Positions 1 to 9,635 of a stretch of DNA of 22,302 nucleotides are shown piece after piece. How positions within the stretch are numbered: the first letter of the stretch is position 1; the number at the start of each line of letters is the position of its first letter. Where the stretch lies: the IMG/VR virus record IMGVR_UViG_3300042368_000857, positions 1 to 22,302 of that record. One strand, written 5' to 3'. The DNA is from a virus. The position numbers and the translations under genes are program-made. The notes below the pieces were generated by a model that searched no databases, was not told the DNA's origin, and was given only the letters and a program-made list of their open reading frames with translations.

Positions 1-192
1 GAATCGAAAAGGTATGATGAGGCACTTTACCATAACGCTATATTGCCGAGAATTATCGACATGGTAGCTAAGTATGGACCGAAAGGGCTACGCATCCACA
101 AGTACTACGGTAAAGATGGTAGATCAACTTATAAGTCAGAAGAGTATGAGGCGTTAAAAGCTAAGATACTTGACTGGTCTAAACTAGACTAA
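1..192 (+). CDS. 3' end of an unrecognised phage protein (5' truncated)
   Basis: An open frame runs from the left edge of the window to a TAA at 190-192 and gives 63 residues. The start lies outside the window. The visible part is charged and rich in Tyr and Lys, ending in KILDWSKLD. I see no motif that names a function. The stop codon is embedded in the first Y-RNA-like element (CTAAAAGTTTTGGG), so the RNA starts essentially at the end of this gene and could be processed from its transcript. Confidence 0.6.
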   Translation, partial: ESKRYDEALYHNAILPRIIDMVAKYGPKGLRIHKYYGKDGRSTYKSEEYEALKAKILDWSKLD

Positions 193-273
193 AAGTTTTG
201 GGATTGTTACAGCAAACTTTTATGCATTTGACTTTTAATCAAAAACGCAAAAAAGCAATCCCGTTGAGTTTTA
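189..273 (+). ncRNA. Y-RNA-like element 1 (short form)
   Basis: The 5' strand (189-217) contains AAAAGTTTTGGGATTG followed by TTACAGCAAAC. The 3' strand has CAATCCC at 256-262 followed by GTTGAGTTTT. GGGATTG (200-206) pairs perfectly with CAATCCC, and below a small internal loop AAAA-TT can pair with GTTGAGTTTT. The interior (218-255) can form a small TTTGA/TCAAA hairpin at 227-243. A second copy at 878-1012 has the same layout, and both sequence differences in the upper helix are compensated there. This is the two-helix, internally looped terminal stem expected of a Ro-binding Y RNA, and it lies 0.85 kb upstream of a Ro60-like gene. The family assignment is inference. Confidence 0.6.
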
Positions 274-344
274 GGATCGTTTCCGCATAAAATGCATTCC
301 TCTGAAAAGGAAAGGTCTCGGTGCAAATCCGAGGGGATCCACCA
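274..344 (+). tRNA. degenerate tRNA-Phe-like element (GAA) with encoded CCA
   Basis: The 5' GGATC pairs with GATCC at the 3' end, which is followed by A-CCA. The anticodon loop CTGAAAA carries GAA, with one C-A mismatch in its stem. The T arm has a perfect CTCGG/CCGAG stem, but its loop is TGCAAAT rather than the usual TTCNANT. The D region is only about 16 nt and folds as GCAT-AAA-ATGC, with no GG in the loop. It starts directly after Y-like element 1. It may be a decayed tRNA, a tRNA mimic, or a processing signal for the preceding RNA. Confidence 0.4.
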
Positions 345-345
345 A

Positions 346-408
346 ATACATACGGAGCTGTTCCTTAAGATGGGTAAGAATGCTTCGGCAAATCGTCTTC
401 GTGTGTAT
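346..408 (+). ncRNA. Predicted branched RNA hairpin
   Basis: ATACATACGGAG (346-357) can pair with CTTCGTGTGTAT (397-408) as a 12-bp stem with two G-U pairs. Inside are two smaller hairpins: one formed by TTCCTTA and TAAGAA (361-380), and TGC-TTCG-GCA (381-390) with a stable UUCG tetraloop. This makes a three-way junction in the leader of the 483-881 gene. I do not recognise the family. The following stretch 409-470 has D-arm-like sequence (TTGGTGTAATAGTAGCA) but no complete tRNA. Confidence 0.35.
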
Positions 409-482
409 CTGATGGGTCCTTGGTGTAATAGTAGCACGTTAAGCAAACGCGATCCTGTTGAATTATAATTATGGAGAAAGTG

Positions 483-881
483 ATGGCAGATCTTAAGGTA
501 GTACCATTCGTTAATATGTTTGGTCAAACGATTAATCCCGGTGAAGATATTATCTATGCTGGTACATCGTGGAAGTCTACGACGTTTCGTAAGGGTAAGT
601 TCGTAGGAGCTTATTATCAAAATGTTTCACGAAGCGTTGTGTCGAGAGACATTGAAGGTAATATCATCAAGGATGAACGTGGTCATACTAAGTATGACCT
701 TGTTACAGAATACAAGCCTGTGGCTGTTAAAATTGAACAGGTTTATGGCGCGAAATGGGTTTATAACCACGAAACGAAGAAGGGCGATTATATCCCTCAT
801 TTTCGTGTAGCGGTTCTTCCTCGGATGAGAGTTTTCCGTCTAGACGCTAAGATGTCTGATCTAGAAAACTCCAGTTTCTAA
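483..881 (+). CDS. Unrecognised phage protein between the two Y-like RNAs
   Basis: This gene encodes about 132 residues. I prefer the ATG at 483 over the one at 471 because GGAG at 474-477 sits 5 bases upstream of it. The protein (MADLKVVPFVNMFGQTINPGED) is rich in Lys and Arg, with many beta-prone segments and a basic middle. I see no signal peptide, membrane segment or catalytic motif. Its position between two Y-RNA-like elements and just upstream of the Ro60-like gene makes an RNA-related role possible, but nothing in the sequence proves it. The gene ends inside the 5' strand of Y-like element 2. Confidence 0.65.
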   Translation: MADLKVVPFVNMFGQTINPGEDIIYAGTSWKSTTFRKGKFVGAYYQNVSRSVVSRDIEGNIIKDERGHTKYDLVTEYKPVAVKIEQVYGAKWVYNHETKKGDYIPHFRVAVLPRMRVFRLDAKMSDLENSSF

Positions 882-1012
882 AAGTTTTGGGTTTCTTACA
901 GCAAACAATCAATGGCGTAAGCCATCGTAGCTCATTTGGTAGAGCATCTGTCTTGTAAACAGAGTGTAGTGGGTTCAATTCCCACCGAAAAATAGAAACC
1001 CGTTGACTTTAA
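878..1012 (+). ncRNA. YrlA-type Y RNA with enclosed tRNA-like module (element 2)
   Basis: The outer stem is AAAAGTTTTGGGTTTC (880-895) with GAAACCC-GTTGACTTT (995-1010). The upper 7 bp are perfect, and below a short internal loop AAAG-TT pairs with GTTGACTTT. Inside, a hairpin ATGGC-GTAA-GCCAT (912-925) stands where a tRNA would have its acceptor stem. It is followed by a canonical D arm (GCTC-ATTTGGTA-GAGC, 930-945), an anticodon-type arm (TCTGT-CTTGTAA-ACAGA, 947-963) and a T arm (GTGGG-TTCAATT-CCCAC, 969-985). There is no acceptor stem and no CCA, so this cannot be an ordinary tRNA-Thr. The architecture (terminal Ro stem plus distal tRNA mimic) is that described for bacterial YrlA RNAs, and a Ro60-like gene starts about 100 bases downstream. 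Confidence 0.7.
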
Positions 1013-1031
1013 ATAGTGTGTAGAGTATATT
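1003..1031 (+). promoter_or_regulatory. Sigma-70-type promoter for the Ro60-like gene
   Basis: TTGACT (1003-1008), a 17-bp spacer and TATATT (1026-1031). The -35 box lies inside the 3' strand of Y-like element 2. Transcription would begin near 1038 and run into the gene that starts at 1116. Confidence 0.6.
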
Positions 1032-1115
1032 AAGAATCTAGATTGAGTTCAGCAACTAAAAAAATCAAACTTGAAATTTGAAAAAAGTTCAATCTGTTGA
1101 AAAAGGAAAGTGAAA

Positions 1116-2540
1116 ATGTCTACTTTTGTTAATGCCGTTAAGAACCAGGAAGCTCGTACCGAGAACGGTATGAAGGCTCGAGCTTCTACTGCTTCCGCTT
1201 GCGTTGATTTGTTCTTCAACGTCGGCGCTATGCGTGGTAAGAACGTAGTTCCTGCGTTCACTGCTGCGTATGTAGAGAACCAGGATCTTGCTGCACGTAT
1301 CGCTCTTTGGGCTCGCGACGTTCGTGGCGGCGCTGGTGAGCGTAAGGTGTTCCGCGACATTCTCCGTGAGCTTGTTCTCAAGGACGAGGACCGCGCTATA
1401 GCTTTGATGCGCAAGATCCCTGAGCTTGGTCGTTGGGACGACCTGTTGGTCTTTGACAAGGACTCAGCTGCTGAGGCAGTTGCGTTCACTTTGATCAAGG
1501 ATGCTTTGGATGCAGGCAATGGTCTGTGTGCTAAGTGGATGCCACGTAAGGGTGAGGATGCGGCTCGTCTGCGTTCGTTCCTTGGTTGGACTCCAAAGTA
1601 CTACCGTAAGCGTCTGGTCGAACTGACTAAGGTTGTCGAGCAGAACATGTGTGCGAACAAGTGGGATGAAATCAACTTCAACCACGTTCCTTCTGTTGCG
1701 TCCTCACGTTACAAGAAGGCGTTTGCTCGTCATACGCCAAAGTACAAGGAATGGGTGGAGAAGCTCGTAAAGGGTGATCCAACTGCAAAGGTTAACGCTG
1801 GAGCAGTGTACCCATACGATGTACTGAAGGGTGTTATCGGTGCATACCGACTGAGCTATGAAAAGGCCAACCTTGACCACATCGTGGCTCAGTGGGAGGC
1901 TTTGCCTAACTACGTTGGTGATGCGAACATCCTGCCAATCGTCGACGTCTCTGGCTCAATGATGTCACCTGCAGGTGGTTACGGCTCTAAGTCGTTGACT
2001 ACTTGTCTTGATGTTTCTGTTTCGCTTGGTCTTTACCTTGCAGACAAGAACAAGGGTAAGTTCAAGGATACGTTCTTGACTTTCTCTGACAAGCCTGAGC
2101 TTATGCACTTGAAGGGCAACATTCTGGGTAAGATCCAGCAGATGTCAGCTTCAGAATGGGGTATGAGCACTAATCTTCACGCAGCAATGCGTAAGATCCT
2201 TGATGTCGCAGTCAAGGGTAATGTGCCTCAGGAGGAAATGCCTGACATGCTGTTGATCCTTTCGGATATGCAGTTCAATGCTTGTGTTCGTTTCGACGAC
2301 TCAGCGATGGAAATGATCGAGCGTAAGTTCGAAGCTGCTGGGTACAAGGTGCCTAAGATCGTGTTCTGGAACCTTAACGCAAAGGACAACGTTCCTGTTA
2401 AGTTCGACAAGCGCGATACTGCTCTTGTTTCTGGTTTCTCTCCAGCCATCGTTAAGGCGGTTCTGTCCGGTAACATGGAAAACTTCACACCTGAAGGGAT
2501 CATGTTGAAGGCAGTAATGAACGATCGTTACGACTACTAA
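1116..2540 (+). CDS. Ro60/TROVE-like RNA-binding protein with C-terminal vWA domain (DUF2828-type)
   Basis: The protein has 474 residues from the ATG at 1116, which has AGGA at 1104-1107; a GTG at 1110 is the alternative. The N-terminal two thirds is helical, with blocks characteristic of the DUF2828/TROVE-like group: VDLFFNVGAMRG, ARDVRGGAGERKVFRDIL and KIPELGRWDDLL. The C-terminal part is a von Willebrand A fold with a complete metal-ion adhesion site: DVSGS, then a Thr in GMSTNL and an Asp in LSDMQF. Ro60 has the same plan, a ring of helical repeats plus vWA, and binds Y RNA and misfolded RNA. Two Y-RNA-like elements directly upstream support a Ro-like RNP. Codon use is richer in G+C and more uniform than in neighbouring genes, suggesting high expression or different ancestry. 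Family membership is known biology; RNA partnership is inference. Confidence 0.8.
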   Translation: MSTFVNAVKNQEARTENGMKARASTASACVDLFFNVGAMRGKNVVPAFTAAYVENQDLAARIALWARDVRGGAGERKVFRDILRELVLKDEDRAIALMRKIPELGRWDDLLVFDKDSAAEAVAFTLIKDALDAGNGLCAKWMPRKGEDAARLRSFLGWTPKYYRKRLVELTKVVEQNMCANKWDEINFNHVPSVASSRYKKAFARHTPKYKEWVEKLVKGDPTAKVNAGAVYPYDVLKGVIGAYRLSYEKANLDHIVAQWEALPNYVGDANILPIVDVSGSMMSPAGGYGSKSLTTCLDVSVSLGLYLADKNKGKFKDTFLTFSDKPELMHLKGNILGKIQQMSASEWGMSTNLHAAMRKILDVAVKGNVPQEEMPDMLLILSDMQFNACVRFDDSAMEMIERKFEAAGYKVPKIVFWNLNAKDNVPVKFDKRDTALVSGFSPAIVKAVLSGNMENFTPEGIMLKAVMNDRYDY

Positions 2541-2679: not shown

Positions 2680-3180
2680 ATGATCAGGAAAGAACTAAAC
2701 ATCGCAGAAGTAAAGACGTTTATCGACGCTCAAACACCAGAAACTAAAGTTTATCTTGGTGGTGACTCAGAACGTTTTCAGATCAACGGTGTTTGGCATG
2801 CAGACTATATCAACGTTGTAGTTGTTCACAAAAACGGTAAGAATGGTTGTCGTGTGTTTGGTGGTATCGTGCGTGAGCGCGACTATGATCAGCAAAAGGA
2901 TAAGCCTCGTATGCGTCTGATGAACGAAGTTATGAAGACCGCTCAACTTTACATGGACCTTCATGACGTTCTTGAAAACCGTGATGTTGAAATCCACTTG
3001 GACATTAATCCAAACAAGGAACACGGTTCTTCATGCGTTATCAACGAAGCTGTTGGTTACATCCGTGGTATGTGTAACATCATACCTTTGGTCAAGCCAA
3101 ACGCTTGGGCTGCCAGCTACTGTGCTGACCGTTACAAGGACGCTATTCAGCACATTAACCATAAGCAGGATGCAGCTTAA
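2680..3180 (+). CDS. YkuK-type RNase H-fold protein
   Basis: This is a 166-residue protein. It shows the pattern of the YkuK/DUF458 branch of the RNase H fold: VYLGGDSER near residue 25 (first acidic position), VVVVHKNG, EIHLDIN near 103-109 (second acidic cluster), GYIRGM and VKPNAWAASYCADR at the C-terminus. Family members have the RNase H core strands and conserved acidic residues, but their substrate is not established. It sits between two tRNA genes and after a Ro60-like gene, so an RNA-directed role is attractive but unproven. The start at 2680 follows AAAGGTG. Confidence 0.7.
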   Translation: MIRKELNIAEVKTFIDAQTPETKVYLGGDSERFQINGVWHADYINVVVVHKNGKNGCRVFGGIVRERDYDQQKDKPRMRLMNEVMKTAQLYMDLHDVLENRDVEIHLDINPNKEHGSSCVINEAVGYIRGMCNIIPLVKPNAWAASYCADRYKDAIQHINHKQDAA

Positions 3181-5394: not shown

Positions 5395-5799
5395 GTGTTG
5401 GTAGTTGGCTTCACCTGCAGCACATTTGATCTATTACATGCTGGTCATGTAGCGATGCTTGCGGAGTGTAAGCAACACTGCGATTATCTAGTAGTTGGTC
5501 TTCAGGTCGATCCATCAAAAGATCGACCTGAGAAAAACAAACCTGTTCAATCTGTATATGAAAGATATATACAGTTGAGGGGATGCACATACGTTGACGA
5601 AGTGATTCCGTATGAAACCGAAGAAGATTTAATAAACCTTCTGGCTATAGAAGATATACATGTTAGATTCGTTGGCCAAGAATATGAAGGCACTTGTTTA
5701 ACAGGTGAAGATATTTGTGAACGAAGAGAAATCCGAATTCACTACAATAGCAGACTACATAATTATAGTTCAAGCGAATTGAGGAGAAGATTGAAATGA
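5395..5799 (+). CDS. Cytidylyltransferase-fold nucleotidyltransferase (HldE C-domain/TagD-like)
   Basis: The 134-residue protein has GFTCSTFDLLHAGHVAML at the N-terminus with the HxGH nucleotide-binding motif, then DYLVVGLQVDP, and a YERYIQLRGCTYVDEVIPYE block where the family has its ERxxxL and VDEV segments. A modified terminal SSSEL replaces the usual RTxG(I/V)S motif. This superfamily joins NTP and sugar- or alcohol-phosphate to give ADP-, CDP- or similar activated compounds; the C-domain of HldE makes ADP-heptose and TagD makes CDP-glycerol. In this operon the natural substrate is heptose-1-phosphate. The start is a GTG just after the speD stop, with no better ATG. It overlaps the next gene by four bases. 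Confidence 0.8.
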   Translation: MLVVGFTCSTFDLLHAGHVAMLAECKQHCDYLVVGLQVDPSKDRPEKNKPVQSVYERYIQLRGCTYVDEVIPYETEEDLINLLAIEDIHVRFVGQEYEGTCLTGEDICERREIRIHYNSRLHNYSSSELRRRLK

Positions 5800-6380
5800 G
5801 TTTCAGTGATCAATTTTTCGAAGAAGTTGTAAATATAGCATCGCAAATTAATAAGAACACAATTGAAAAGATTGTTACAGAATTAAATATTCTTAGAGAA
5901 AAAAATGGTCGTGTATTTGTTATTGGCGTAGGTGGTTCCGCTGGTAATGCTTCTCACATGGTCAATGACCTACGTAAGCTATGTAACATTGAAGCTTATT
6001 GTCCAACTGACAACGTGCCTGAGTTGACTGCTCGTACAAATGATGAAGGGTTTCATACTGTATTTGACAGATACCTTGCTGTCAGCAACTTTGGCGAAAA
6101 CGATGCTATCTTTGTTTTGTCAGTTGGTGGTGGTGATAAGGAAAAGAATGTTTCTGTTGGTATCATTAATGCTGCTCAATTTGCTAAGGCAAACAGAGGA
6201 CAGGTGTTTGGTATTGTTGGTAAAAAGGATGGTTACATTGCTAAGAATGCGGATCTTTGCGTAGTTGTGCCTGATGTTGAACCTAAACGAATTACTCCTC
6301 ATAGCGAAGCATTTCAAGCTGTTGTTTGGCATTGTATCGTTTCAAATCCTAAATTACAAGAAAACTCTACTAAATGGTAA
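5796..6380 (+). CDS. gmhA: Sedoheptulose-7-phosphate isomerase (GmhA-like, SIS domain)
   Basis: The 194-residue SIS-domain protein has GVGGSAGNASHMVNDL (about 44-59), which corresponds to the GmhA phosphate-binding loop and the first metal ligands, and PELTARTNDEGFHTVFDRYL, which is nearly the GmhA consensus (LTAxxNDxGxxxVF). Against E. coli GmhA the metal positions read His54, Asp58 (Glu in E. coli), Glu (Gln in E. coli) and a conserved C-terminal His in VVWHC. The enzyme converts sedoheptulose 7-phosphate to D-glycero-D-manno-heptose 7-phosphate, the first committed step of heptose synthesis. ATGA overlap with the upstream nucleotidyltransferase and a seven-base overlap with the next gene show tight translational coupling. 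Confidence 0.85.
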   Translation: MSFSDQFFEEVVNIASQINKNTIEKIVTELNILREKNGRVFVIGVGGSAGNASHMVNDLRKLCNIEAYCPTDNVPELTARTNDEGFHTVFDRYLAVSNFGENDAIFVLSVGGGDKEKNVSVGIINAAQFAKANRGQVFGIVGKKDGYIAKNADLCVVVPDVEPKRITPHSEAFQAVVWHCIVSNPKLQENSTKW

Positions 6381-6922
6381 AAATTTGTTTCATTGATAGA
6401 GACGGTGTAATTAACAAGTTAATTCCTCGTGATGGTATAACTGCTTGTGCGCCATGGACCTTAGAACAGTTTGAATACCTACCTAAGGTTCAAGAAGCTT
6501 TTTATAATATTAAAAATAAAGGTTATATTATAATCATAGCAACTAATCAGCCAGACGTTAAAGATGGCTATATGACTTGGGATAATCTAAACGCAATCCA
6601 TAACAAGATCAGATCAGATTTTGAAATTGATGAATTGTACATGGCTCATACTAGAGGTGCACCAGACTACAAACCTAATCCTGGTATGTTGTTGGGAGGT
6701 TTGGAATATTACGATGCTGATCCTGTACAATGTTATTTTATTGGCGATAGTGACAAAGATATAATTGCTGGTAACAGGGCTGGTATAAATACAATATGGG
6801 TAAATGATAAGTGGTTAGAAAACAAAGAGTGGAATCTTAAACAAGATTACAAAGATAAGTATGGTGATATAAAGCCTGATTATATTACTGATAGTTTATG
6901 GCGGGCAAGCTTTTTAATTTAG
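6374..6922 (+). CDS. gmhB: HAD-family heptose bisphosphate phosphatase (GmhB-like)
   Basis: The 182-residue protein has HAD motifs in order: FIDRDGVINKL (nucleophile and acid Asp), IIATNQPDV (motif II, followed by a GmhB-like loop), YKPNPGML (motif III Lys) and FIGDSDKDIIAGNRAG (motif IV). This is the GmhB/HisB arrangement. The Cys-rich zinc loop that precedes the CRKP motif in E. coli GmhB is absent and replaced by the short AHTRGAPDYKPNPG. Role: removes the C7 phosphate from heptose 1,7-bisphosphate. Starts within the gmhA stop region (ATGGTAA). A substrate other than heptose bisphosphate is possible, but the operon makes it the best fit. Confidence 0.8.
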   Translation: MVKICFIDRDGVINKLIPRDGITACAPWTLEQFEYLPKVQEAFYNIKNKGYIIIIATNQPDVKDGYMTWDNLNAIHNKIRSDFEIDELYMAHTRGAPDYKPNPGMLLGGLEYYDADPVQCYFIGDSDKDIIAGNRAGINTIWVNDKWLENKEWNLKQDYKDKYGDIKPDYITDSLWRASFLI

Positions 6923-6931
6923 GAGTTATGA

Positions 6932-7651
6932 ATGATTGATGTGTACGCCGATGGCGCAGATTATAATGGTATTATAGATGCAGCAATGAACAAGAACATC
7001 AAGGGATTTACTACCAATCCTACCTTGATGAAGGCTGCTGGAGTCACAGACTTTTCAAAGTTTGCCAACGATATTATCCCTCACTTAAAAGATATTAGAC
7101 CTGATACAAACATCAGCTTAGAAGTTTTTGCTGACGAGCAAGACGAAATGCTTCGTCAGGCAAAGATTATTGCAGGTTGGGGAGACAAGTACGACTTCAA
7201 GGTATATGTTAAGATTCCTGTAATGAACACCAAGGGAGTTTCTAACTACAATCTTATTGGCGATCTTGCTAGAGACGGCATCAACGTAAATGTTACTGCT
7301 GTGTTTACAGAGCATCAGACAATGGATATTCTAGAGCAAATTCAAGATGTAACTGGTTCAGTAATTATTTCTATTTTCGCTGGTAGAATTGCTGACACTT
7401 TACGTGATCCAGAAAAGATCGTTACTAAGTGTTTGAGTTTAGACAGAGACGCAAAGGCTAATTTCCTTTGGGCTTCTTGTCGCGAAGTGTTTAATTACAC
7501 TCAAGCTTACCGTTCTGGTTGTGACATCATTACGATGACTCCTGATCAGATCAAGAAGTTTTCATTACAGAACAAGAACCTCGAAGAATACTCGATGGAA
7601 ACTGTTCAAATGTTTTACAATGATGCACAAAAGTCGGGATATGTTCTATGA
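6932..7651 (+). CDS. talC: Transaldolase of the small TalC type
   Basis: The 239-residue TIM-barrel protein has GFTTNPTLM (25-33), Schiff-base Lys94 in YVKIPV, NVTAVF and SIFAGRIADTLRDP. These blocks define the small transaldolase/fructose-6-phosphate aldolase branch. Cyanophages carry similar talC genes that redirect the host pentose-phosphate pathway. Here the neighbours are heptose genes, and the transaldolase/transketolase cycle is the source of sedoheptulose 7-phosphate, so it probably feeds GmhA. Ribosome site AGGAG (6921-6925), start ATG 6932; an ATG at 6929 opens a two-codon frame. Ends in an ATGA overlap with the glycosyltransferase. Confidence 0.88.
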   Translation: MIDVYADGADYNGIIDAAMNKNIKGFTTNPTLMKAAGVTDFSKFANDIIPHLKDIRPDTNISLEVFADEQDEMLRQAKIIAGWGDKYDFKVYVKIPVMNTKGVSNYNLIGDLARDGINVNVTAVFTEHQTMDILEQIQDVTGSVIISIFAGRIADTLRDPEKIVTKCLSLDRDAKANFLWASCREVFNYTQAYRSGCDIITMTPDQIKKFSLQNKNLEEYSMETVQMFYNDAQKSGYVL

Positions 7652-8661
7652 GTGGATTTGAAGAAAACGAAATTTCCAAGAATGCTAATGGCGGAACTGA
7701 AATCGCCAAGCGCAGACTAGCTGAGTTAATCAACCCAGAACTTCTACAGGAAAGTCAGATTATTTGTTCTCGGCTTAGAGAATATCAGCCAGAAAAGCTT
7801 CGAGTGTTTTGGTGTCATGATTTGCCTGAAGATCCTGAGTCAGCCAAGTTTAAAGATGCTGAGTTCCAAAGAAATATACACAAGTACATTTTTATTTCAA
7901 ACTGGCAGTTTCAACGTTATCAGCTATTTCATGGCGTTAAGTATGATGGTAAGTCAGACGTTATTGAATCTGGTATTGAACCCGCTCCACAATCAGCATT
8001 AAATAAACCTGATGATGGTAAAATTCACATTGTGTACACTTCTACACCACAGAGAGGTTTAGAGATTCTTGTACCTGTGTTTAAGTTCTTGGCGCAAAAT
8101 AATCCCAACATTCACTTGCATGTTTTCTCTAGCTTTAAGATTTATGGTTGGGATCAGATGGACAAGCAGTACGAACCATTGTATAATGAAATTCGTAACC
8201 ATCCGCAAATGACGTATCATGGCTATAAACCTAATGCGGAACTGAAAGAGTTTATCAACAAGTGTCACATTTTCGCTTATCCTTCTATTTGGCAGGAAAC
8301 TAGCTGTCGTGCTATGCTAGAAGCTATGTCTGCTGGTTTGGTTTGCGTCCATACAAGCTATGGTGCATTGCCTGAAACTTCTGGTATGTTGAATATCATG
8401 TATCGCGGCGACATGGAAGACAGAAATCATCATGGACAAATTTTGGTACAGCATTTGGGTGCTGCTATTCAAATGATTAATTCTGACAATTATGAAAACA
8501 TGATCAACTTTAACAAGATCTATGTTGATAGTAGATATAATATCAACAGAATTGTTGGGCAGTGGGAAACAATGCTTGGCGATTTAAAGTGGAGATACCC
8601 TACTGTCGACAGCCGAAAGGCAAAGAAGGAAATGTTTATTTACAGGACTAACCATCTATGA
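7648..8661 (+). CDS. GT4-family glycosyltransferase
   Basis: The 337-residue protein has a GT-B fold. The C-terminal nucleotide-sugar domain is clear: IHIVYTSTPQRGLEIL, YHGYKPNAELKEFINKCHIFAYPSIWQETSCRAMLEAMSAG with the retaining-enzyme EX7E motif (Glu217 and Glu225), then VHTSYGALPETSG. The N-terminal acceptor domain is short but retains NGGTE near residue 14. Placed between transaldolase and heptose kinase with ATGA overlaps on both sides, it most likely transfers the heptose made by this operon. The acceptor (phage DNA, phage protein or host envelope glycan) cannot be read from the sequence. There is no signal peptide, so it acts in the cytoplasm. Confidence 0.85.
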   Translation: MSGFEENEISKNANGGTEIAKRRLAELINPELLQESQIICSRLREYQPEKLRVFWCHDLPEDPESAKFKDAEFQRNIHKYIFISNWQFQRYQLFHGVKYDGKSDVIESGIEPAPQSALNKPDDGKIHIVYTSTPQRGLEILVPVFKFLAQNNPNIHLHVFSSFKIYGWDQMDKQYEPLYNEIRNHPQMTYHGYKPNAELKEFINKCHIFAYPSIWQETSCRAMLEAMSAGLVCVHTSYGALPETSGMLNIMYRGDMEDRNHHGQILVQHLGAAIQMINSDNYENMINFNKIYVDSRYNINRIVGQWETMLGDLKWRYPTVDSRKAKKEMFIYRTNHL

Positions 8662-9635
8662 TTATTTCCAGAACTCCTCTACGTATCAGCTTCTTCAGCG
8701 GTGGTAGTGATATGCCCTCGTTCTTTCTTAGAGAACGAGGTGCTGCTCTGTCAGTTACAATCAACAAGTACATATATGTTATGATGCACAAAACTCCACA
8801 CCTTGGTATCAAAACAATGTATGATACAATTGAGCAAACAGCTGACATTGAACTTATGCAGCATGCTATTACAAGAGAAAGCTTGAAGCATTTTAATATC
8901 GACAACGATGTAACAATTGCTTCTATCTCTGATATTTTGTCGAGGGGTTCTGGTCTTGGTTCTTCTTCAGCCTTTACTACAGGATTGCTAAATTGTTTGG
9001 CTGAAGGTAACTACACCAGAGAACATTTAGCACAAACAGCATATCATATTGAAAGAAATATGTGTAAGTTTCCTGTTGGTAAACAGGATCAATATGCAGC
9101 AGCTTATGGTGGGTTAAACGTTTTTCAATTTGAAACAGATGATGTGGTAACTGTTAAACCTGTTGTTAACAATAATGAAAGTTGGAACAAGTTACAGAAC
9201 AATCTCCTGCTTATCTATAGTGGTCGTGGTAGATCAGCTAATAGTATTTTACAAAAACAAGCTGCAGCTATGGACGAAAAAGATAAATTCAAGCTAGTAG
9301 CACGAAACAGAGATAGAGCTTTCGTTGGGGCTAATCTTTTCTCTGCTGGTTTGATTGACGATTTCGGAGCATTGTTTCATGATGCTTGGATGGACAAAAA
9401 GGGATTGGCAAAAGAGATCACCAACGATTATTTCGATGTTATCTACGACAAAGCTTTGAAGGCTGGAGCTATTGGCGGCAAACTGCTTGGCGCTGGCGGT
9501 GGAGGATTCTTTTTATTCTATGTGAAACCTGACCACAGAGAAAAAGTTATCCATGCTGTTACTCACGAATCTAGCTGTAAGGTTTATGACTTCAAATTCG
9601 TTGAACAAGGATCGACGATTATATCTAGTTGCTAA
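8658..9635 (+). CDS. hddA: GHMP kinase, D-glycero-D-manno-heptose-7-phosphate kinase (HddA-like)
   Basis: The 325-residue protein has RTPLRISFFSGGSD (5-18), the ATP-binding motif GSGLGSSSAF (97-106), VGKQDQYAAAYGGLN, and the C-terminal KLLGAGGGGFF. This combination is typical of HddA, which phosphorylates C1 of D-glycero-alpha-D-manno-heptose 7-phosphate. It would act after GmhA and before GmhB. HddA belongs to the alpha (GDP-heptose) pathway of capsule and S-layer glycans, while the ribokinase-type HldE N-domain serves the beta (ADP-heptose) pathway. It is the last gene of the coupled operon. Confidence 0.87.
   Translation: MIISRTPLRISFFSGGSDMPSFFLRERGAALSVTINKYIYVMMHKTPHLGIKTMYDTIEQTADIELMQHAITRESLKHFNIDNDVTIASISDILSRGSGLGSSSAFTTGLLNCLAEGNYTREHLAQTAYHIERNMCKFPVGKQDQYAAAYGGLNVFQFETDDVVTVKPVVNNNESWNKLQNNLLLIYSGRGRSANSILQKQAAAMDEKDKFKLVARNRDRAFVGANLFSAGLIDDFGALFHDAWMDKKGLAKEITNDYFDVIYDKALKAGAIGGKLLGAGGGGFFLFYVKPDHREKVIHAVTHESSCKVYDFKFVEQGSTIISSC

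Follow-up and report, generated by a model that had tools for sequence, protein, structure and literature searches.

The viral contig IMGVR_UViG_3300042368_000857, which is rich in tRNA genes and was analysed over its whole length of 22,302 nucleotides (22.3 kb; here called the window), very probably encodes a phage Ro ribonucleoprotein, i.e., a protein with the fold of the Ro60 ring together with several Y-RNA-like RNAs; from the sequence and a predicted protein model we put the probability of this reading at about 0.8. The evidence for this phage's locus, all of it computational, establishes a recurring RNA motif whose stem covaries and which is linked to the gene, as well as the two tRNA-like folds and the fold of Ro60. 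Each RNA would be closed by a docking element, composed of a covarying stem of 7 base pairs, the motif NN[UA]C[AC]GCA[AU] on its 5' side and a GUUGA that follows the 3' strand. The Ro protein presumably binds this stem, and the RNAs would be made and released.

Putative docking stems in the window and in related loci

A preliminary description of the window had named two Y-RNA-like elements upstream of a Ro60-like gene, because their 5' strands (189-217 and 878-906) agree at 27 of 29 positions and the two differences (A/T at 203 and G/C at 206) are compensated in the 3' partners CAATCCC (256-262) and GAAACCC (995-1001), both directly followed by GTTGA. These observations are correct, each of the two partners occurs once in the first 1.2 kb, and both helices (E1 and E3 below) are exact, but the set has four members, of which E2 and E4 had been overlooked. 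The four are obtained with a rule that demands seven paired bases, then NN[TA][CA][ACG]GCA with a fixed distance of 15 bases between the base of the stem and the end of GCA, and GTTGA behind the 3' strand; measured from stem to stem they span 200-262 (E1), 273-456 (E2), 889-1001 (E3) and 1040-1095 (E4).

191-271, plus strand: E1, short Y-like element; stem 200-206 GGGATTG / 256-262 CAATCCC, motif TTACAGCAA at 207-215, GTTGA at 263-267
264-466, plus strand: E2, YrlA-type element; stem 273-279 AGGATCG / 450-456 CGATCCT, motif TTTCCGCAT at 280-288, GTTGA at 457-461
880-1012, plus strand: E3, Y-like element with an upright tRNA-like head; stem 889-895 GGGTTTC / 995-1001 GAAACCC, motif TTACAGCAA at 896-904 (as in E1), GTTGA at 1002-1006
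1030-1106, plus strand: E4, leader element; stem 1040-1046 AGATTGA / 1089-1095 TCAATCT, motif GTTCAGCAA at 1047-1055, GTTGA at 1096-1100, then the Shine-Dalgarno-like AAGGA at 1103-1107

The four elements have one docking stem motif in common and differ in their heads, two of which resemble tRNAs. A 10-base junction, GTTGAGTTTT, connects E1 with E2, and such junctions are also found in other phages; this spacing, the tRNA-like domain of E3 and the position of E4 in the Ro leader were absent from the preliminary description. The identical 5' strands occur elsewhere in IMG/VR in two other contigs only, each with a Ro60-like gene, and one of these contigs equals the window over their common 7,537 bases without a mismatch. 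Two more elements, located about 460-660 bases upstream of the window, lie on a second contig of this phage (L006 3235-3431, contig positions 4759-4955); the first of them has a T-arm-like hairpin.

When 80 relatives of the Ro gene were searched for stems followed by TTGA, tandem arrays were found directly upstream in many phages, and within 1.2 kb of 209 Ro genes there were 353 elements on the strand of the gene and 4 on the opposite strand, with at least one element at 173 loci. In the genome of SUSP2, a phage of E. coli, four elements are located downstream of the Ro gene. The 258 unique elements comprise 77 distinct stem sequences; because this set had been selected for pairing, the covariation test was repeated blind to pairing, and all seven pairs were Watson-Crick in 30 of 64 elements (mean of shuffles 1.4, maximum 7 in 1000). 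A simple pattern, CCTGTTGAKTTTWAGG, gave nearly only chance matches in viral contigs, and a covariance model (R1), built from 40 elements of which none came from this phage, was used instead. In the window it matches E4 with 46.5 bits (E 2.7e-11) and E1 with 45.2 bits (E 6.4e-11), so that the helix, which had been proposed as a conserved RNA structure, is conserved beyond chance. Over whole records R1 finds elements in 15 of 15 Ro phages and in none of 20 comparison phages, the latter drawn from chance matches of the DNA pattern. The preliminary description had named a covariance-model search of related phages as a check, and homologous stems next to the gene family are indeed present in other phages and covary strongly. 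The system is not phage-specific: near DUF2828-type genes of bacteria and one archaeal metagenome-assembled genome (MAG), 87 of 87 model matches lie on the strand of the gene, although some of these contigs are perhaps prophage. Arrays of 2-6 elements upstream of DUF2828-type Ro-like genes were seen in Firmicutes, Chloroflexi, Treponema and a Woesearchaeota MAG (L372 2844-2973; L375, L399, L412, L430).

The Ro60-like protein and the tRNA-like heads

1116-2540, plus strand: Ro60-like protein; helical N-terminal half and von Willebrand A domain with an invariant DVSGS motif
317-437, plus strand: permuted tRNA-like module of E2; T arm 317-333, acceptor-like helix 334-340 / 414-420 with ACCA at 341-344 and an extended closed arm on this helix, D arm 423-437
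925-988, plus strand: tRNA-like domain of E3; D arm 930-945, anticodon-like arm 947-963 (loop CTTGTAA), T arm 969-985

The protein is assigned to DUF7788 and DUF2828 in Pfam and to PHROG 850 (RNA-binding protein); NCBIfam gave no family, and a sequence search of the PDB gave no match, so that a comparison of folds was needed. The AlphaFold2 model (predicted local distance difference test 88.4, predicted template modelling score 0.88) resembles the Ro60 ring, and the first Foldseek matches, ahead of all others, are Xenopus Ro60 (1yvr, E 1.6e-8), Deinococcus Rsr (2nvo) and two human Ro60 structures, with E-values for the four entries from 1.6e-8 to 8.8e-7. An alignment of 48 relatives leaves the DVSGS metal-site motif invariant. 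Because these matches are to Ro60 and the Pfam families are DUFs rather than TROVE, the protein is, as far as a predicted model allows, a member of the Ro60 kind in its fold but divergent in its sequence, which bears out the earlier assignment of a Ro60-like von Willebrand A gene downstream of the elements.

The head of E2 folds (z -3.4) in the order T arm, closed extended acceptor arm and D arm, i.e., as a circularly permuted tRNA-like structure of YrlA topology, and only a weak ordinary tRNA match is found in this element (274-341, 26.8 bits). Relatives of E2 are present in L007, L008, L010 and L012. The permuted order recurs in 16 relatives, where 19 of 22 pairs are double-compensated, and an Rfam alignment confirms that T-acceptor-D is the order of YrlA; one relative matches the full YrlA model (36.1 bits, E 1.9e-6; curated score 69). 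The permuted heads have no anticodon arm. A permuted tmRNA (RF04321) was considered for E2 and rejected, as it scores 13.3 bits against 47 and the sequence behind the D arm is too short to hold a tag reading frame.

In E3 an upright D-anticodon-T cloverleaf sits on the docking stem (z -3.95; zero shuffles fold as well) and matches the Rfam tRNA model with 52.8 bits over model positions 5-66. ARAGORN does not call this head as a tRNA. There are three acceptor pairs instead of a 7-bp acceptor stem, and no CCA, so that the head, which would join the stem via this truncated acceptor end, probably cannot be charged. The upright module was found in four phages, i.e., E3 has three relatives (L008, L009 and L011). 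The ARAGORN "tRNA" calls L008 1232-1306, L009 4735-4809 and L011 1475-1546 are the heads of upright elements.

The most frequent head across all elements is short, like the loop of E1. Large conserved heads of 140-220 nt were observed in other relatives (L022-L080 upstream of Ro, e.g., L047 2772-3167, and L005 3687-3905), and Rfam gave no family for the two such stretches searched. In T4-like phages, over-long "tRNA" genes (L208 5896-6016 and 6026-6138, L206 5894-6008, L212 8340-8452, L218 6796-6914) carry the docking stem as a hairpin inside the anticodon loop, in the order 3' strand, GNNA-like loop, 5' strand and then TTC.GCA; from their sequences these genes appear to be circular permutants of the E2 type.

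Alternative readings, known systems and neighbouring genes

If the Ro protein binds the docking stem, the heads might tether the ring to partners that recognise tRNA, such as the nuclease PNPase or tRNA enzymes, by analogy with Deinococcus Rsr and its Y RNA; we regard this mechanism as having an even chance. PMC8394870 reviews the tRNA-like D, T and acceptor arms of YrlA together with the machine formed by Rsr, Y RNA and PNPase. An alternative to the tether, which leaves the Ro ribonucleoprotein itself untouched, is that the heads are decoys, stabilised by Ro, for host anticodon nucleases or other tRNA-targeting defences, an idea raised earlier for YrlA (PMC7790460). Such a role would fit the clusters of phage tRNA genes that surround the elements, as well as the anticodon loops of E3-type heads, which differ between phages. 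We nevertheless consider it unlikely, because most elements have short heads that are not tRNA-like, the permuted heads lack an anticodon arm, and related arrays lie beside the gene in bacterial genomes.

The E4 stem is separated from AAGGA by 7 bases and from the ATG at 1116 by 20, and the last upstream element lies no more than 30 nt from the start of the Ro match in 69 of the 87 loci that have an upstream element. Because E4 adjoins the Ro ribosome-binding site in this manner, surplus Ro may repress its own translation, for which the odds seem balanced. The same proximity could be taken further, to a reading where all elements are cis-acting leader structures, i.e., operator or attenuator hairpins through which Ro regulates its operon, with no separate RNAs; tandem elements with a common 10-base junction could then be a single leader. 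However, 127 of the 353 elements near Ro genes are downstream of the gene, those of KVP40, OC, DLP6 and BF are dispersed far from it, and conserved tRNA-like heads would be superfluous for an operator, which makes this reading improbable. Decayed tRNA genes and chance inverted repeats with coincidental covariation, for which the tRNA-rich phage and its degenerate tRNA-like sequence might speak, are ruled out by the strand bias of 353:4, the 15/15 versus 0/20 genomes found with a model made without the window, the 77 perfectly paired stems and the double compensations.

A phage Ro ribonucleoprotein with Y-RNA-like RNAs thus is the best reading of elements that had been described as Y-RNA-like and adjacent to a Ro60-like phage gene, supported by covarying stems near related genes of other phages and of bacteria. 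Several observations nevertheless weigh against it. The 1116-2540 protein does not match Pfam TROVE (PF05731). E4 alone folds no better than its shuffles. In several phages the elements are found elsewhere in the genome and none is near Ro. The YrlA model RF02553 has no match in the window, E2 included, and the best relatives reach 36.1 and 21.7 bits against the curated 69. In Listeria phage CKA15, where transcription data exist, the transcribed region 26,236-26,727 (OR088597, L340) contains no perfect-stem element and is a different structured RNA, and the array of the present kind, found unannotated upstream of Ro at 25,290-25,552, could not be matched to the other two transcribed regions.

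That Y RNAs occur beside Ro60 in bacteria and phages is already known; Chen et al. 2014 reportedly described Y RNAs of bacteria and phages that adjoin Ro60/Rsr. As cited in PMC12282133, that work includes phages, mycobacteriophages among them, with Y RNAs by Ro60. The elements described here share with this class that they lie on the same strand beside a Ro60-like gene and have a conserved closing stem, to which Ro would bind, and a tRNA-like module in at least one head (E2 and E3). What sets them apart from the known Y RNAs of bacteria and phages is a partner of the DUF2828/DUF7788 type that Pfam TROVE does not cover, a docking motif of the form NN[UA]C[AC]GCA...GUUGA, the upright cloverleaf of one head and the presence of one copy as a leader hairpin. 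E2 is like YrlA (RF02553) in its T arm, closed acceptor arm and D arm on the basal stem but has another docking-stem sequence, and the protein is like Ro60/Rsr in its predicted helical N-terminal half and von Willebrand A domain with the metal-site motif but has an identity of only ~14%. For phage CKA15, the 2 kb upstream of the Ro homologue were reported to contain three non-coding regions with some of the highest transcription, which were suggested to be Y RNAs, and the Ro protein was detected in virions (PMC12282133). This transcription supports expression of the elements but does not prove it, because the region for which coordinates are stated lacks the motif. Overproduction of gp53, the Ro-like protein of mycobacteriophage LeBron, is toxic (PMC13148394). 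New as far as checked are the precise docking motif, the leader copy, the combination of permuted and upright tRNA-like heads in the multi-element array of a single phage, and the connection with Class I RNAs discussed below, although some of these points may already be in Chen et al. 2014.

471-881, plus strand: small open reading frame of 136 amino acids between E2 and E3; start perhaps at 483

Profile searches, including Pfam and PHROG, matched this frame to no known family. Directly downstream of the Ro gene (2680-3180) is a Ribonuclease H-like gene (PF04308), which may be a functional neighbour of Ro because KVP40 has a PF04308 gene at the same place. Further along, the genes at 5395-9635 (nucleotidyltransferase, SIS isomerase, HAD phosphatase, transaldolase, glycosyltransferase and GHMP-type kinase) resemble a pathway for synthesis of a sugar nucleotide, perhaps of heptose.

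Relation to Class I RNAs and significance

To our knowledge, Class I RNAs have so far been thought unique to social amoebas. In an Rfam scan, the model of Dictyostelium Class I RNA (RF01414) gave matches below threshold on E3, E4 and elements of mycobacteriophages. With this model alone, the best match in 17 of 20 Ro phages (in G010 judged by coordinates) is a Y-like element in exact register, i.e., the match begins with the second base of the stem and stops just past it; in 20 further Ro phages, with E up to 0.05, 11 of 16 matches are elements in exact register and one more overlaps an element. Examples are 889-950 and 1041-1096 in the window, L030 4533-4586 and L216 4915-4971. Comparison phages give matches of similar E-value, but these are not elements near a Ro gene, so that the weight lies on the coincidence of position, and a single E-value says little. 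The best phage scores, 33.8-34.8 bits, are below the curated 41.5; the phage matches do have the terminal stem, the motif UUACAGCAA and the CUG end.

Class I RNAs of about 60 nt have a short covarying stem, an 11-nt motif adjoining its 5' strand and a CUGU end (PMC7919456). The short phage elements thereby share with them a covarying terminal stem, the 5'-side motif CCUUACAGCAA, a CUG(U) end and the length of ~60 nt. They differ in that Class I RNAs have an extra base between the stem base and CAGCAA and are eukaryotic, encoded by standalone genes with a DUSE promoter and bound by the RRM protein Rnp1A. We tentatively suggest, as a possibility rather less probable than its negation, that the docking module (stem, 5'-side NNUUACAGCAA, CUG(U) end, ~60 nt) is the Class I RNA module, such that Class I RNAs would be the Y RNAs of a DUF2828-type Ro-like protein. 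The likeness may reflect homology, convergence on one protein family or a common short motif.

If this relation is real, an orphan RNA class would be explained, and one code of RNA-protein recognition would extend across phages, bacteria, the archaeal MAG and amoebae. The docking element offers a compact, searchable signature for Ro-associated RNAs of phages and bacteria, which Rfam lacks, and suggests that phages carry entire families of such RNAs with interchangeable heads. Its natural compensatory variants could be used for mapping Ro recognition, and phages that grow on laboratory E. coli would open the long-standing question of Y RNA function to a direct test.
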